From Pseudacidovorax intermedius (GTDB lineage: Bacteria; Pseudomonadota; Gammaproteobacteria; Burkholderiales; Burkholderiaceae_C), in the NCBI RefSeq assembly GCF_003350475.1, contig NZ_QQAV01000002.1, forward strand, positions 496,001-560,000: 64,000 nucleotides of DNA, in the 5' to 3' direction. The notes below the pieces were generated by a model. It saw only the letters and a list, made by a program, of their open reading frames with translations, was not told the origin of the DNA and did no database searches. This document shows, one piece after another, positions 34,223-40,516 of this stretch; the first letter of the stretch is position 1, and each line of letters begins with the position of its first letter. Both the position numbers and the translations under genes were made by a program.

Positions 34223-35554
34223 ATGCCTCAAGCCATCACCGAACAACTCAGCCGCGACCAGCAGATCAGCGCCCTCGAGAAGGACTGGGCGACCAACCCG
34301 CGCTGGAAGGGCGTGAAGCGCGGCTACAGCGCCGCCGACGTGGTCCGCCTGCGGGGCTCGGTGCCGATCGAATACACACTGGCCCAGCGCGGTGCCGAGA
34401 AGCTGTGGGAGAAGATCAACGGTGGTGCCAAGAAGGGCTACGTCAACGCCTTCGGCGCCATCACCGCCGGCCAGGCCATGCAGCAGGCCAAGGCCGGCCT
34501 GGAAGCCGTGTACCTGTCGGGCTGGCAGGTCGCCGCCGACGGAAACACGTCCGAGACCATGTACCCCGACCAGTCGCTGTACGCGTACGACTCGGTGCCC
34601 ACCATGGTCCGCCGCATCAACAACACCTTCAAGCGTGCCGACGAGATCCAGTGGGGCCGCGGCATCAATCCCGGTGATGCCGAGTTCGTCGACTACTTCC
34701 TGCCCATCGTGGCCGATGCCGAAGCCGGCTTCGGCGGCGTGCTCAATGCCTTCGAGCTGATGAAGAACATGATCGCGGCCGGCGCTGCGGGCGTGCACTT
34801 CGAAGATCAGCTGGCTGCCGTCAAGAAGTGCGGCCACATGGGCGGCAAGGTGCTGGTGCCCACGCAGGAGGCCGTCGAGAAGCTGATCGCCGCGCGTTTC
34901 GCCGCCGACGTGATGGGTGTGCCTTCGATCGTGCTGGCCCGCACGGACGCCGAGGCTGCCAACCTGATCACCAGCGACCACGACGCCAACGACAAGCCCT
35001 TTCTGACGGGCGAACGCACGCAGGAAGGCTTCTTCCGCGTCAAGAATGGCCTGGAGCAGTCCATCAGCCGCGGCGTCGCCTACGCGCCCTATGCCGACCT
35101 GGTGTGGTGCGAGACCGGTGTGCCCGACATCGGCTTTGCCCGCGAGTTCGCCCAGGCCGTGCATGCCGCCTGCCCGGGCAAGCTGTTGAGCTACAACTGC
35201 TCGCCCTCGTTCAACTGGAAGAAGAACCTGAACGAAAAGCAGATCGCTTCGTTCCAGGAAGACCTGTCGGCCCTCGGCTACAAGTTCCAGTTCATCACGC
35301 TGGCTGGCATCCACATCAACTGGTTCCAGACCTTCCAGTTCGCCCATGCCTATGCCCGCGGCGAAGGCATGAAGCACTACACCGAGATGGTGCAGGAGCC
35401 CGAGTTCGCCGCGCGCGAGAAGGGCTACACCTTCGTGTCGCACCAGCAGGAAGTCGGCGCCGGTTATTTCGATGACGTGACCACCGTCATCCAGGGCGGT
35501 TCGTCCAGCGTGAAGGCGCTGACGGGCTCGACGGAGGAAGAGCAGTTCCACTGA
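34223..35554 (+). CDS. aceA: Isocitrate lyase
   Basis: This 443-residue glyoxylate-cycle enzyme cleaves isocitrate to succinate and glyoxylate. The active-site loop KKCGHMGGK contains the catalytic Cys, and the flanking [11 protein letters not shown] and [18 protein letters not shown] carry metal and substrate ligands. [16 protein letters not shown] is the downstream signature. The ATG at 34223 follows GGAG; a TTG at 34208 is less likely. It is monocistronic, with its own terminator at 35583-35610 and a palindrome-bearing upstream region. Confidence 0.97.
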
Positions 35555-35582
35555 CCGGTTGAGCAGGTTCGTTCAGGGAGCA

Positions 35583-35610
35583 GGGCTCGGCCGGTGGCCG
35601 GGCCCTTTTT
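35583..35610 (+). terminator. Intrinsic terminator of aceA
   Basis: GGGCTCGGCC (35583-35592), loop GGT and GGCCGGGCCC (35596-35605) form a ten-pair stem with one G-U pair, followed by five T residues. It is 28 bases after the aceA stop. Confidence 0.9.
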
Positions 35611-35739
35611 GCTTGCTGCCTGCGCGTCGGGAATGCGCTGCGCCGGTCCGGCCTCTTGCGGTTCGCAAAGGTGCCTTGATCTTTCTTTGCAGCGTGTTGC
35701 GCATCGGCATCTGCAGCAGGGCTGCGGCCGAGCGCCCGC

Positions 35740-35745
35740 TACAAT
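35740..35745 (+). promoter_or_regulatory. Candidate -10 box of the thrS leader promoter
   Basis: TACAAT at 35740-35745 is a good sigma-70 -10 hexamer; no clear -35 box is seen. Transcription would start near 35752, giving a leader of roughly 200 bases before thrS that contains the leader peptide and the attenuator. Confidence 0.5.
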
Positions 35746-35795
35746 CGCGCGCTCATCGTCTGTCCACCAACAAGGGCGAGAAAGGCAATCTGGTT

Positions 35796-35858
35796 ATGAC
35801 ACCGCGAACTACTGGCACCGCATCGTTCGGTCCGCTTCCCCAGGGGAGCGGCCGGTAG
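35796..35858 (+). CDS. Threonine-rich leader peptide of thrS
   Basis: This 20-codon reading frame starts at ATG 35796 after AAAGG at 35781-35785 and encodes [10 protein letters not shown] followed by ten more residues and TAG. Four of the first eight codons specify threonine (positions 2, 5, 6 and 8), the amino acid charged by the downstream enzyme. Bases just after the stop (CCGCGC, 35861-35866) are complementary to the first arm of the terminator before thrS (GCGCGG, 35903-35908). Stalling at threonine codons would thus favour antitermination, as in classical attenuators. Confidence 0.7.
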
Positions 35859-35860
35859 GC

Positions 35861-35932
35861 CCGCGCAGCGCCGGCAGGTCCGGCACGCTCATCCAGCACG
35901 AAGCGCGGCTCACCCCCGCGCTTTTTTGTTTT
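35861..35932 (+). promoter_or_regulatory. thrS attenuator (antiterminator and intrinsic terminator)
   Basis: The terminator consists of AAGCGCGG (35901-35908), a seven-base loop, CCGCGCTT (35916-35923) and a T-rich run up to 35932, only 18 bases before the thrS ATG. CCGCGC at 35861-35866 can pair with 35903-35908 instead and would break the terminator. That segment is within reach of a ribosome halted at the leader stop codon (35856-35858), so completed leader translation should favour termination. Confidence 0.7.
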
Positions 35933-35949
35933 CCGCTCCGAGGTTTCCC

Positions 35950-37857
35950 ATGATCCAGATCACGCTCCCCGACAACTCCCGCCGCGAATACCCCGGCCCC
36001 GTGACGGTGGCCGAAGTGGCCCAGTCCATCGGCCCCGGCCTGGCCAAGAACACGGTGGCCGGCAAGGTGGACGGCAAGCTGGTGGACGCCAGCGACCTCA
36101 TCGACCACGACGCCCGTCTTCAGATCATCACGCCCAAGGACGAGGAAGGGCTGGAGATCATCCGCCACTCCTGCGCCCACCTGGTCGGCCATGCGGTCAA
36201 GCAGCTCTATCCCACGGCCAAGATGGTGATCGGCCCCGTGATCGACGAGGGCTTCTACTACGACATCTCCTACGAGCGTCCCTTTACGCCCGACGACATG
36301 GCGGCCATCGAGCAGCGCATGAAGGAATTGATCGCGCAGGACTACGACGTCATCAAGAAGATGACGCCGCGCGCCGAGGTGATCGATGTCTTCAAGTCCC
36401 GCGGCGAAGACTACAAGCTGCGCTTGGTCGAGGACATGCCCGACGAGCAGGCCATGGGCCTGTACTACCACCAGGAATATGTGGACATGTGCCGCGGCCC
36501 GCACGTGCCCAACACGCGCTTCCTGAAGGTCTTCAAGCTCACGAAATTGGCCGGCGCCTACTGGCGCGGCGATGCCAAGAACGAGCAGCTGCAGCGCATC
36601 TACGGCACGGCCTGGGCCGACAAGAAGCAGCTGGACCAGTACATCCAGCGCATCGAGGAGGCCGAGAAGCGCGACCACCGCAAGCTGGGCAAGGAGCTCG
36701 ATCTGTTCCACATCGACGACGTCGCGCCTGGCGTCGTCTTCTGGCACCCGAAGGGCTGGGCCCTGTGGCAGGCCGTGGAGCAGTATATGCGCCAGGTCTA
36801 CAAGGACACGGGCTACCAGGAAGTGAAGGGCCCGCAGATCCTCGACAAGAGTCTGTGGGAGAAGACGGGCCACTGGCAGAACTACCGCGAGAACATGTTC
36901 GTCACGGAGTCGGAGAAGCGCGATTACGCGCTCAAGCCGATGAACTGCCCCGGCCACGTGCTCATCTTCAAGAGCGACCTGCGCAGCTACCGCGAACTGC
37001 CGCTGCGCTACGGCGAGTTCGGCCAGTGCCACCGCAACGAGCCCTCGGGCGGCCTGCACGGCATCATGCGTGTGCGCGGCTTCACGCAGGATGACGGCCA
37101 CATCTTCTGCACGGAGGACCACATCCTCGAGGAGTGCGTGGCCTACACGTCGCAGTTGCTCAAGGTGTATGCGGACTTCGGCTTCACGGACATCCTCTAC
37201 AAGGTGGCCACGCGCCCCGAGCATCGCATCGGCTCCGACGAGCTCTGGGACAAGGCCGAAGGCGCGCTGATGGAAGCGCTGCGCCGATCGGGCGTAGACT
37301 TCGTCATCGCCCCGGGTGATGGGGCCTTCTATGGCCCCAAGATCGAGTACACGTTGCGCGATGCCATCGGCCGCCAGTGGCAATGCGGCACGATGCAGGT
37401 GGATTTCAACATGGCAGAGCGCCTGGGCGCCGAGTACGTGACGGAGTCCAGCGGTCGCGCCCACCCGGTGATGCTGCACCGGGCCATCGTCGGCAGCCTC
37501 GAGCGCTTCATCGGAATGCTGATCGAGCACCACGCCGGCGCCATGCCCGTCTGGCTCGCGCCGGTGCAGATTTCGGTGCTGAACATCACGGATGCGCAGG
37601 CGGACTACGCTGCAGAAGTTGCGAAAACGCTGCGCCATCAAGGGTTTAGGGTGCAGCTCGATCTGCAGAACGAGAAGATCACGTATAAAATACGCAAGCA
37701 TTCGCTGCAAAAGCTTCCCTACATCCTCGTCGTCGGCGACAAGGAGAAGGAAGCCGGTGCCGTCGCGGTGCGCGCCCGAGGCAATGTCGATCTCGGGGTC
37801 ATGTCGGTGGAGGCGTTCTCCCAAAAGATCGCCGACGACATCTCCAGCAAGCGTTGA
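35950..37857 (+). CDS. thrS: Threonine-tRNA ligase
   Basis: This 635-residue class II synthetase is complete. It has the N-terminal TGS domain ([20 protein letters not shown]), the editing domain with [15 protein letters not shown], the catalytic core with zinc ligand Cys333 in [10 protein letters not shown] and motif 2 in [20 protein letters not shown], and the anticodon-binding domain at the C-terminus. The ATG at 35950 matches homologues; an earlier in-frame start is unlikely because it falls inside the terminator. A threonine-rich leader peptide and terminator precede it. infC follows after 106 bases. Confidence 0.97.
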
Positions 37858-37925
37858 CAACCCTCAGGTCCGAGCTTTACTGCCGGGCCTGTGCTTTGCC
37901 TGGGTGCGTGCCAATAACGGCGTTA

Positions 37926-37942
37926 GCTACAAAATTTGTAGC
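37926..37942. repeat. 17-bp dyad upstream of infC
   Basis: GCTACAAA (37926-37933), a central A and TTTGTAGC (37935-37942) form a perfect dyad in an AT-rich stretch, 22 bases before the infC start. Similar GCTA...TAGC dyads recur between genes in Comamonadaceae. Here it may be an operator, an mRNA hairpin near the infC ribosome-binding site, or a dispersed repeat. Confidence 0.5.
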
Positions 37943-37963
37943 ATATGATGAAGGACTGAAGCC

Positions 37964-38560
37964 ATCGCTACTGCATTTCGCGACCGTCGCCAACGCGAGG
38001 AACGCCAACACCGCCTGAACCGGGAAATCATGGCCCCGGAAGTTCGCCTGTTCGGACCCGAAAACGAGGCCCTGGGCGTTGTGAGCCTTTCCGAGGCATT
38101 GCGTCTGGCCGGCGAGCACGACGTGGACCTGGTCGAGGTGGTTGCTGCCGCCAATCCGCCGGTCTGCCGGTTGATCGAGTACGGCAAGTTCAAGTTCCTC
38201 GAACAGAAGAAGGCCGCCGAGGCGAAGTCGAAGCAGAAGGTCATCGAGGTCAAGGAAGTCAAGTTCCGGCCCGGTACCGACGATGGCGACTACAACATCA
38301 AGATGCGCAACATCCGTCGTTTCCTGGACGACGGCGACAAGTGCAAGATCACGCTGCGCTTCCGCGGTCGCGAGATTACGCACCAGGAGCTGGGCCTGGC
38401 CCTGCTGCAGCGCATCCGGGACGAGCTGGGCGACGCCATCGTGGTCGAGCAGTTCCCCAAGCTGGAAGGCCGGCAGATGATCATGATGATCGCGCCGGGC
38501 CGCAAGAAGGGTGGGGCGGCTCCCAAGGCCGCCGAGCCGGCAACGTCCGGCCAGGCCTGA
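37964..38560 (+). CDS. infC: Translation initiation factor IF-3 (ATC start)
   Basis: This 198-residue IF-3 promotes fidelity of start-codon choice and subunit dissociation. I place the start at ATC 37964, which gives the expected N-terminus (I/M)[20 protein letters not shown] and has AAGGA at 37951-37955 with eight-base spacing. The first ATG, at 38030, would remove 22 conserved residues. A non-AUG start is the known autoregulatory device of infC, because IF-3 discriminates against such codons. The N-domain is followed by the linker [11 protein letters not shown] and the C-domain with [18 protein letters not shown]. Confidence 0.93.
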
Positions 38561-38702
38561 AGCGCGAGCTTCGCCTGCCTGCAAAGGATTTCGCCGCTGG
38601 CGCCGCAAGGCGCGGGTGGCGGGATGAAGAAGTGCCTCGAAGGCCAACAAGTTCGGGAAGGATTCCCGGCGCCTTGCGAGCACAAGTAAAAGGAGCATTC
38701 AC

Positions 38703-38906
38703 ATGCCCAAGATGAAGACCAAGAGCAGCGCGAAGAAACGCTTTCGCGTTCGTCCCGGTGGCACCGTCAAGCGCGGTCAAGCCTTCAAGCGTCACATCCT
38801 GACCAAGAAGACCACCAAGAACAAGCGCCACCTGCGCGGTGCGGTGACGGTTCACGAGACCAACATGGTTTCGATGGCCGCCATGCTGCCCGGCCAAGGC
38901 ATTTGA
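38703..38906 (+). CDS. rpmI: 50S ribosomal protein L35
   Basis: This 67-residue basic protein begins [20 protein letters not shown], the L35 signature, and ends in the conserved MLPGQGI. It lies between infC (142-base gap) and rplT (28-base gap), the standard IF3-L35-L20 operon. In E. coli, L20 represses translation of rpmI and rplT through an mRNA structure in this region; the same may apply here. Confidence 0.97.
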
Positions 38907-38934
38907 TCAACCGACGAACTAGGAAGGATTCAAT

Positions 38935-39294
38935 ATGCCTCGCGTCAAACGTGGTGTAACCGCTCGCGCCCGCCACAAGAAGGTTCTCGCCCTTGCCAAG
39001 GGCTTCCGCGGTCGTCGCGGCAACGTCTTCCGCATCGCCAAGCAGGCGGTGATGAAGGCGGGCCAGTACGCCTACCGTGACCGCCGCGCCAAGAAGCGCG
39101 TTTTCCGTCGTCTGTGGATTGCGCGTATCAACGCCGCCTCCCGTGAACTGGGCCTGACGTACAGCCAGTTCGCCAACGGCATCCGCAAGGCCGGCATCGA
39201 GATCGACCGCAAGGTCCTCGCCGACATCGCCGTGCACGACAAGGCGGCTTTCGCCGGCATCGTGGAGCAGGTCAAGGCCAAGCTGGCTGCTTGA
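38935..39294 (+). CDS. rplT: 50S ribosomal protein L20
   Basis: This 119-residue protein begins [20 protein letters not shown] and contains [20 protein letters not shown] and [20 protein letters not shown], the L20 signature. It assembles early on 23S rRNA and is the usual autorepressor of its operon. The ribosome-binding site is AGGAAGG. A terminator-like hairpin follows at 39347-39380, before pheS. Confidence 0.97.
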
Positions 39295-39303
39295 TTCCGC
39301 CCA

Positions 39304-39332
39304 GTGCGCGTCCGCTCCGGCGGAGTCGCGCA
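39304..39332 (+). other. GC-rich hairpin downstream of rplT
   Basis: GTGCGCG at 39304-39310 and CGCGCAC at 39326-39332 flank a further inner stem TCCGC/GCGGA. It has no T-run. It may stabilise the rplT 3' end ahead of the true terminator. Confidence 0.4.
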
Positions 39333-39346
39333 CGCCCACGGTTCCA

Positions 39347-39380
39347 GGGCTGGCGCTTGAAAAAGCTCCGGCCCTTTTTC
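39347..39380 (+). terminator. Intrinsic terminator after rplT
   Basis: GGGCTGG (39347-39353) pairs with CCGGCCC (39368-39374), extended inside by GCTT with AAGC, and is followed by five T residues. It separates infC-rpmI-rplT from pheST, although partial read-through into pheS is possible. Confidence 0.8.
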
Positions 39381-39472
39381 ATGGGCCCCGCGGCGCGTGC
39401 ATCGACTCCCGGTCGGTGCCATCGCGTCCCGCGGTCAGGGCCCTCTCCATTTCTCCGCATCGCACGCATTCC

Positions 39473-40516
39473 ATGAACGAACTGGACACCCTGGTCGACC
39501 AAGCCCGTGCCGCCTTCGCCGGCGCCCGGGCACCCGCTGAGCTCGAGAACGCGAAGGCGCAGTTCATGGGCAAGTCCGGCCGCGTCACGGAACTGATGAA
39601 GGGCCTGGCCCAGCTGCCGGTCGACGAGAAGAAGAGCCGCGGCGCCGCCATCAACGTGGCCAAGCAGGCCATCGAAGCCGCGCTCAATGCCCGTCGGCAG
39701 GAGCTGGCCGATGCGGAACTCAATGCCCAACTGCAGGCCGAGGCGCTGGATGTCACGCTGCCCGGCCGCCGCCGCGCCGGGGGCGGTCTGCACCCCGTGG
39801 CGCGCGCGCAGGAGCGCATCGAGGCCATCTTCGCCAGCATGGGCTTCGACGTGGCCGACGGCCCCGAGGTCGAGACCGACTGGTTCAGCTTCACCTCGCT
39901 GAACAACCCGCCGAACCACCCCGCGCGGTCGATGCAGGACACCTTCTACGTCGACATGAAGGACGACGACGGCCAGCTGTTCAACCTGCGCCCGCACACC
40001 TCGCCGATGCAGGTGCGCTATGCGCAGGCCCATGCGCGCCAGTACGCCGGCCAGGAGAGCATGCCCGACATCCGCGTGATTGCGCCGGGCCGCACCTACC
40101 GTGTGGACAGCGATGCCACGCATTCGCCCATGTTCCATCAGGTCGAGGGCCTGTGGATCGGCCAGAACGTCAGCTTCAAGGACCTGAAGGTGATGTACCT
40201 GGATTTCATCCAGGCCTTCTTCGAGACCAGTGCGCTCAAGTTGCGCTTCCGTCCCAGCTACTTCCCCTTCACCGAGCCCAGCGCCGAAATCGACATCATG
40301 TTCGAGAAGGGGCCGCTGGCCGGCCGCTGGCTGGAGGTGTCGGGCTCTGGCCAAGTGCATCCGCAGGTGGTGCGCAACATGGGCCTGGACCCGGAGAAGT
40401 ACATCGGCTTCGCCTTCGGCTCGGGCATCGACCGCCTGGCCATGCTGCGCTACGGCGTGAGCGACCTGCGCCTCTTCTTCGACGGCGACCTGCGTTTCCT
40501 GAACCAATTCCAATAA
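39473..40516 (+). CDS. pheS: Phenylalanine-tRNA ligase alpha subunit
   Basis: This 347-residue catalytic subunit has an N-terminal coiled-coil (residues 1-90), then motif 1 in [20 protein letters not shown], motif 2 in [20 protein letters not shown] and motif 3 in [18 protein letters not shown]. It forms an alpha2-beta2 enzyme with PheT, which begins 15 bases downstream. The ATG at 39473 gives the usual N-terminus; no phenylalanine-rich leader peptide is visible upstream. Confidence 0.97.

Follow-up and report, generated by a model that had tools for sequence, protein, structure and literature searches.

The open reading frame that precedes the threonyl-tRNA synthetase (ThrRS) gene in the window, the 64,000-nucleotide stretch of Pseudacidovorax intermedius DNA analyzed here, is best read as encoding the leader peptide of a ribosome-mediated attenuator of thrS transcription that would respond to the supply of charged Thr-tRNA (probability about 0.88). 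The cell would thereby, very probably, make more ThrRS when charged threonine tRNA is short. The region before thrS holds a short, translatable frame with a ribosome-binding site, an excess of codons for Thr (which the product of the downstream gene loads onto tRNA), an intrinsic terminator between frame and gene, and an antiterminator that by complementarity excludes the terminator (its model energy is not above that of shuffles); the strand that forms this antiterminator lies close enough to the stop codon to be reached by a ribosome positioned there. We favor attenuation because the biased codons, the terminator, the two mutually exclusive pairings, and the geometry at the stop codon make up the classical anatomy, and because the gene fits the codons. 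Sequence comparison shows that the frame is conserved and biased in its codons, that a terminator follows it, and that the alternative complementary segments exist and are suitably placed; that the frame is translated, that ribosomes stall on it, that the RNA switches, and how strongly thrS responds are inferred.

In the proposed mechanism, a ribosome would translate the Thr-rich peptide as RNA polymerase transcribes the leader. With Thr-tRNA scarce, the ribosome would stall early, at Thr codons 2, 5, 6, or later, and cover codons 3–6 (segment 1); the segment directly after the stop codon (segment 2) would be free to pair with the terminator 5′ arm, no terminator would form, and thrS would be transcribed. 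With Thr-tRNA ample, the ribosome would reach the stop codon and cover segment 2, the terminator would form, and transcription would end. In many relatives segment 1 can itself pair with segment 2, and an untranslated leader would terminate there too. Such an attenuator would be a third solution for thrS, beside the enzyme-bound operator of Escherichia coli and the T-box of Bacillus. It spans nine or more families of a single order, seems to have disappeared from several genera, and would show the ease with which one synthetase gene swaps its sensor.

Leader anatomy, codon bias, and the conserved start

The original prediction described a 20-codon frame with a good ribosome-binding site and Thr at codons 2, 5, 6, and 8, and every element is present: the codons are ACA, ACT, ACT, and ACC, and the SD-like sequence is GAAAGG (Table 1). 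The CCGCGC that was proposed to follow the stop codon and to pair with the terminator 5′ arm is there as well; segment 2 pairs with GCGCGG of that arm at −12.6 kcal/mol, and 6% of shuffles do as well. A terminator lies directly before thrS, as claimed, with 17 bases rather than the proposed 18 between the last T of its tail and the gene. A terminator scan of 701 bases returned two matches against 0.4 expected, the second being that of the upstream gene (at 35582–35606), whose frame ends at 35554 and which, from its sequence, we take to encode an isocitrate-lyase-like protein. A promoter scan reported none; TAGAAT/TACAAT-like hexamers recur near the same spot across the genus alignment. The synthetase is 99% identical to ThrRS of Pseudacidovorax sp. 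RU35E, in agreement with an origin in the Comamonadaceae, and the name thrS is assumed from family knowledge and from the original prediction.

Table 1. Features of the thrS leader region in the window.
Feature	Positions	Strand	Basis
-10-like TACAAT, probable leader promoter	35740–35745	+	Sequence and genus alignment (inference); no good -35 found
Conserved leader block, including SD-like GAAAGG (35780–35785)	35770–35785	+	Genus alignment; base counts in 130 leaders
Leader ORF, 20 codons (ATG 35796–35798) and stop TAG (35856–35858)	35796–35858	+	Sequence; start and Thr-rich tails kept in relatives
Segment 1, CGCGAACTAC, inside codons 3–6	35803–35812	+	Can pair with post-stop segment in many relatives
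Segment 2, CCCGCGC (from 35860; CCGCGC 35861–35866), putative antiterminator strand right after stop codon	35860–35866	+	Pairing and placement
Segment 3, terminator 5′ arm GAAGCGCGG, followed by 7-base loop	35900–35908	+	Terminator scan
Segment 4, terminator 3′ arm CCGCGCTTT (35916–35924) and T-rich tail (to 35932)	35916–35932	+	Sequence and terminator scan
thrS, threonyl-tRNA synthetase, controlled gene	35950–37857	+	ORF; 99% ThrRS identity

Beyond its start, the peptide diverges fast yet stays Thr-rich, with tails after MTPRT such as MTPRTTTTPTKV, MTPRTTTSTTTMV, and MTPRTTTTTFTGT. Among 124 distinct peptides, Thr accounts for 289 of the 1179 codons that follow codon 5 (24.5%), compared to 86.6 ± 7.6 (7.3%) in shuffles and to 2.1 and 2.4% in the other two frames; an enlarged set of 171 distinct tails gives 353/1586 (22.3%). 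The Thr share in the 124 peptides is 44% at codons 6–9 and 10% at later codons. Throughout the stretch past codon 5, Thr is spelled by a mix of codons (ACC 141, ACG 79, ACA 38, ACT 31), while codon 2 is ACA and codon 5 is ACT, each in 123/124 peptides, at positions (codons 1–5) that the search motif partly fixes. Absence of the Thr codons from close relatives had been named as grounds for giving up the attenuator; at least two are found in 124/124 distinct peptides and at least three in 119, and the corresponding figures in the enlarged set are 171/171 and 150/171. Comparison of the tails in 52 pairs gives a per-site ratio of nonsynonymous to synonymous changes of 0.68, a weak protein-level constraint of the kind expected if little besides Thr matters.

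Codons 1–5 are almost invariant in the family, which would also be expected if the nascent MTPRT peptide stalled the ribosome in response to a signal other than Thr-tRNA supply. This arrest-peptide explanation is highly improbable given that leaders of other families begin MTPLT or MRPPT, that arrest peptides are usually longer than five residues, and that codons 6–9 are so heavily Thr.

The nucleotides at the leader start are constrained as well. In loci collected independently of the motif, bases −3 to +9 around the start are almost unchanged (23/23, and 12/12 but for one base), and this conservation seems to exceed the apparent need of Thr codons and pairing and is not fully explained by them. 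It is conceivable, if unlikely, that the 19-base core GGUUAUGACACCGCGAACU over the leader start has a second job, for instance in ThrRS recognition or in the control of leader initiation; thrS would then be under two linked signals, tRNA charging read through the ribosome and enzyme level read through the same RNA. The same conservation could be taken to mean that ThrRS binds the leader RNA in the manner of E. coli, with the conserved bases as its site, and the triplet before U−1 is GGU or CGU, both of which match Thr anticodons in our reading. Positions −9 to −5 vary, however (commonest base 33–71%), and +1 to +10 hardly vary, so that the triplet could not be presented in an anticodon-like loop closed by a stem on its flanks. 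On this ground the idea that GGU/CGU mimics the anticodon was rejected, and the check for an E. coli–type operator, covering that site alone, found no flanking stem around the conserved GGU. In addition, thrS itself starts about 150 bases downstream of the leader start in the window, and the Thr-rich tails would be left unexplained, which makes operator binding by ThrRS extremely improbable. Under the attenuation reading, the 182 distinct leaders now collected form a comparative set for what a leader needs beyond its codons, which is useful because the start-codon bases are far more conserved than the peptide tail.

Distribution in the family and order

Leader DNA was matched in 15/15 genomes of the genus, that of the window included. 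The best-kept blocks in the genus alignment of thrS upstream regions are the SD block, the start with codons 2–6, and the terminator arms. CCGCGC is present in 14/15 genomes, and the one without it (L015) has the tail TEGFEHPTGR. Across the family, the 19-base core GGTTATGACACCGCGNACT occurs in 191/299 genomes and 102/141 genera, as a single copy in each, and a reversed control pattern had no match in the 299 genomes. From the 108 genomes without GGTTATGACACCGCGNACT, 36 were searched and 30 upstream regions were read; relaxed forms of the core appeared in 11 of these 30 (for example with a GTG start in L295 or ACG at codon 2 in L282), which makes 191 an underestimate. The genomes lacking the exact core include L290, which has a divergent leader when read by eye. 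The divergent leaders upstream of thrS in L093 and L290 read MFRTTLTGS and MQIFRTSLPTS, and in both the terminator GTGCGG/CCGCAC and the post-stop CCGCAC appear, by eye, to have changed together.

The core is tightly linked to the gene. Fetched by the core alone, 89 of 90 family loci have thrS within 320 bases, and the remaining one (L163) stops at a contig end; of 50 loci from a search of the order, a set that shares some places with the first, 49 have thrS within the same distance. Approached from the other side, 33 named Burkholderiales loci fetched through ThrRS and not through the motif carry the core in 23 cases, 20 of them exact. Carriers include Variovorax, Xenophilus, Aquincola, Comamonas, Piscinibacter, and Hydrogenophaga, and further Rubrivivax, Methylibium, Rhizobacter, Roseateles, Paucibacter, and Acidovorax.

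In the order, GTTATGACACCGCNNACT with at most one mismatch was found in 72/399 genomes, leaving 327 without a match; the reversed control, by our own count, matched 21/399, so that the single-mismatch matches are partly due to chance. Of the 74 listed places, 56 were examined, and all but one (L225) lie before thrS. Copies linked to thrS were found in nine families of the order. Only 12 of 30 ThrRS-fetched loci across the order have the core, which indicates that many of its families lack it in this form. Outside the order, the pattern matched 10/226 genomes of the class, compared to 7 for the reversed control by our own count; none of the 10 loci had a ThrRS match, and no thrS-linked copy was found among the genomes sampled there. 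Similarly, the region before thrS contained the motif in none of 46 loci taken by name as gammaproteobacteria outside the order, and four of these loci had an ORF with at least four Thr there, none with the features of the leader.

Within the order, the leader has apparently been lost in several genera. This loss and the spread over nine families extend the original prediction, as does the pairing of codons 3–6 with the post-stop segment described below. Among family members without a recognized leader, 15/25 keep a similar GC-rich hairpin with a T-run, placed between the promoter region and thrS, indicating that the hairpin can persist without the peptide. One of the 15, L277, retains what by eye resembles the remains of a leader, cut short by an early stop (ATGACACTGTGA).

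Alternative pairings and modeled switching

A terminator finder placed a hairpin with a T-run after the leader stop in 130/131 leaders of the first set, missing L215, and between leader stop and thrS in 179/182 distinct leaders of the enlarged set. In L124, L215, and L279 the hairpin it chose lies upstream of the stop codon or overlaps it; these three were kept in the complement count over 158 regions, and entered the second model described below only if they passed its spacing filter. The terminator arms vary in step among leaders (GCGCGG/CCGCGC, GTGCGG/CCGCAC, GGCGTGG/CCCACGCC, ATGCGG/CCGCAT).

Loss of the alternative pairing in relatives was the other outcome that would have spoken against attenuation. 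A perfect complement of at least 6 bases between the post-stop region and the terminator 5′ arm is present in 65/158 distinct regions, compared to 21.0 ± 3.8 (maximum 33) in shuffles. Swapping arms between leaders gave 47.9 ± 3.5 (maximum 57), a maximum below the real count, which indicates that true partners fit better at 6 bases; there is no clear advantage for complements of 7 bases (17 real versus 16.3) or 8 bases (6 versus 4.9). The complement begins a median of 5 bases (interquartile range 4–7) past the start of the stop codon, in a spacer whose median length is 43. It thus adjoins the stop codon, as release by the ribosome requires, and the comparison supports the classical attenuation that was originally suggested.

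The second pairing, in which codons 3–6 complement the post-stop segment over at least 7 bases, occurs in 35/158 regions against 4.0 ± 1.9 (maximum 10) in shuffles. By duplex energy both pairings are moderate: segment 1 with the post-stop region has a mean z of −1.07 and 32% of leaders at p≤0.05 (reversed control −0.02 and 8%), and segment 3 with the post-stop region has −0.99 and 24%. The window's own codon 3–6 pairing with the post-stop region is no better than in shuffles, and the energy of folding computed for the 210 bases by themselves (z 0.52, no better than shuffles) is uninformative. Pairing of the SD block with the post-stop region was also considered; it seemed persuasive within individual lineages (for class A, the consensus from 27 leaders shows AGGC:GCCU) but was dropped as a general feature, since its mean z of −0.56 and 13% at p≤0.05 over 178 leaders hardly exceed the −0.38 and 13% of the reversed control. 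Separately, the second half of the leader ORF, in the window (35842–35853) and in the genus, can form a GC-rich hairpin (GGTCCGCTTCCCCAGGGGAGCGGCC) that is part of the minimum-energy fold and may compete with switching.

Switching was modeled in two ways. A first model comprised 130 leaders with segment 3 truncated after its last paired base. It gave a stalled pairing of 0.33, compared to 0.45 with shuffled spacers, and stall exceeded stop in 52/130 leaders, with the reverse in 10. With the 3′ arm present, the terminator won in every state (mean 0.93–0.97), which would agree with a choice taken while the RNA is still being transcribed. The second model, chosen after the outcome of the first had been seen and the one relied on here, comprised 177/182 leaders, included four extra bases of the terminator loop, and applied a spacing filter. 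It computed how probable it is that the post-stop region holds the terminator 5′ arm at a time when the 3′ arm has yet to be made, with 27 bases masked as the assumed footprint of a ribosome.

For real leaders in the second model, the 2:3 pairing is 0.478 with the ribosome stalled at codon 5, 0.169 with it at the stop codon, and 0.247 without a ribosome; the first of six sets of shuffled spacers gave 0.485, 0.34, and 0.375, respectively. The pairing lost at the stop codon thus amounts to 65% in real leaders compared to 22–30% in the six shuffled sets, while in absolute terms the stalled-state helix is not above that with shuffled spacers. Stall exceeds stop in 108 leaders versus 60–75 in shuffles, with the reverse in 7 versus 12–19, and the mean pairing falls steadily with the codon in the A site, from 0.543 at codon 2 to the value at the stop. 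By this measure the copy in the window is a moderate case: its predicted pairing is 0.23–0.30 at codons 2 and 4–7, 0.08 at codon 3, 0.01 at codon 8, 0.75 at codons 14–15, about 0 at the stop codon, and 0.71 without a ribosome.

That stalled pairing does not rise above shuffles in absolute terms, together with the hairpins kept by leaderless relatives, would suit a constitutive leaky terminator, in which the hairpin sets only a basal thrS level and the short ORF is translated but switches nothing. Such an arrangement, however, gives no role to the enrichment of Thr in a single frame or to the complementarity beside the stop codon, and we consider it very unlikely.

Known synthetase controls and the genomic setting

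In E. coli, ThrRS binds tRNA-like hairpins in the thrS operator and blocks translation, with no known leader peptide; the likeness is that the ThrRS level is adjusted via the thrS leader RNA. In Firmicutes such as Bacillus, a T-box before thrS responds to uncharged tRNA-Thr, and its RNA binds the tRNA directly. It resembles the present leader in acting by transcription antitermination and differs in being free of a peptide, whereas the thrS leader has a peptide ORF. A T-box covariance model had no match in the window region and none at the gathering score in 16 related loci, where known RNA families returned tRNAs only. Thr_leader (RF00506) has Thr codons in a leader with an attenuator, as in the thrS leader, but controls biosynthesis genes. 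Neither it nor any other Rfam family matched 34500–40500 at E up to 1. Thr_leader is the thrABC leader of enterobacteria. It appears as a label in one source (PMC2659441), and autoregulation of E. coli thrS receives a passing mention in another (PMC2965389).

Leader peptides of synthetase genes are already known (pheST, cysS, trpS, leuS), and thrS would be a further synthetase gene of this kind. Searches of open-licence PubMed Central papers brought up no recognizable thrS leader peptide, although a 2004 FEMS survey of proteobacterial attenuators could contain a case. In the uORFC-8-2 motif, a cysS leader of Rhodobacterales with proposed ribosome-mediated attenuation (PMC8632094), a short ORF with cognate amino acid codons is likewise followed by an intrinsic terminator and a synthetase gene, but the codons are for Cys, with tandem Cys near positions 14–15, the gene is cysS, the group is the alphaproteobacteria, and the sequence is unrelated. 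A second source places an attenuator at pheST in gammaproteobacteria and candidate attenuators at trpS and leuS in Streptomyces (PMC1262725), which share the synthetase gene, leader peptide, antiterminator, and terminator and differ in amino acid and bacterial group; the same source reports that threonine operons of Actinobacteria have no conserved RNA structure upstream.

In a published promoter table for Cupriavidus metallidurans, thrS stands under the tag Rmet_R0015, and infC and rpmI are separate entries (PMC9045368). In several families of the Burkholderiales a tRNA gene sits immediately ahead of the leader or of thrS itself. There the leader would probably be read from the tRNA promoter, giving a tRNA–leader–thrS transcript, and thrS would be the main target. 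Downstream of thrS in the window, ORFs follow that are presumably infC, rpmI, rplT, and pheS. Inspection by eye revealed no Phe leader before pheS in the window. The rplT–pheS gap (39344–39380) contains an imperfect-looking copy of a hairpin with a T-run, and in seven relatives the same gap carries a hairpin with a T-run like AAGGGCTGGCGCTTGAAAAAGCNCCAGCCCTTTTTT.
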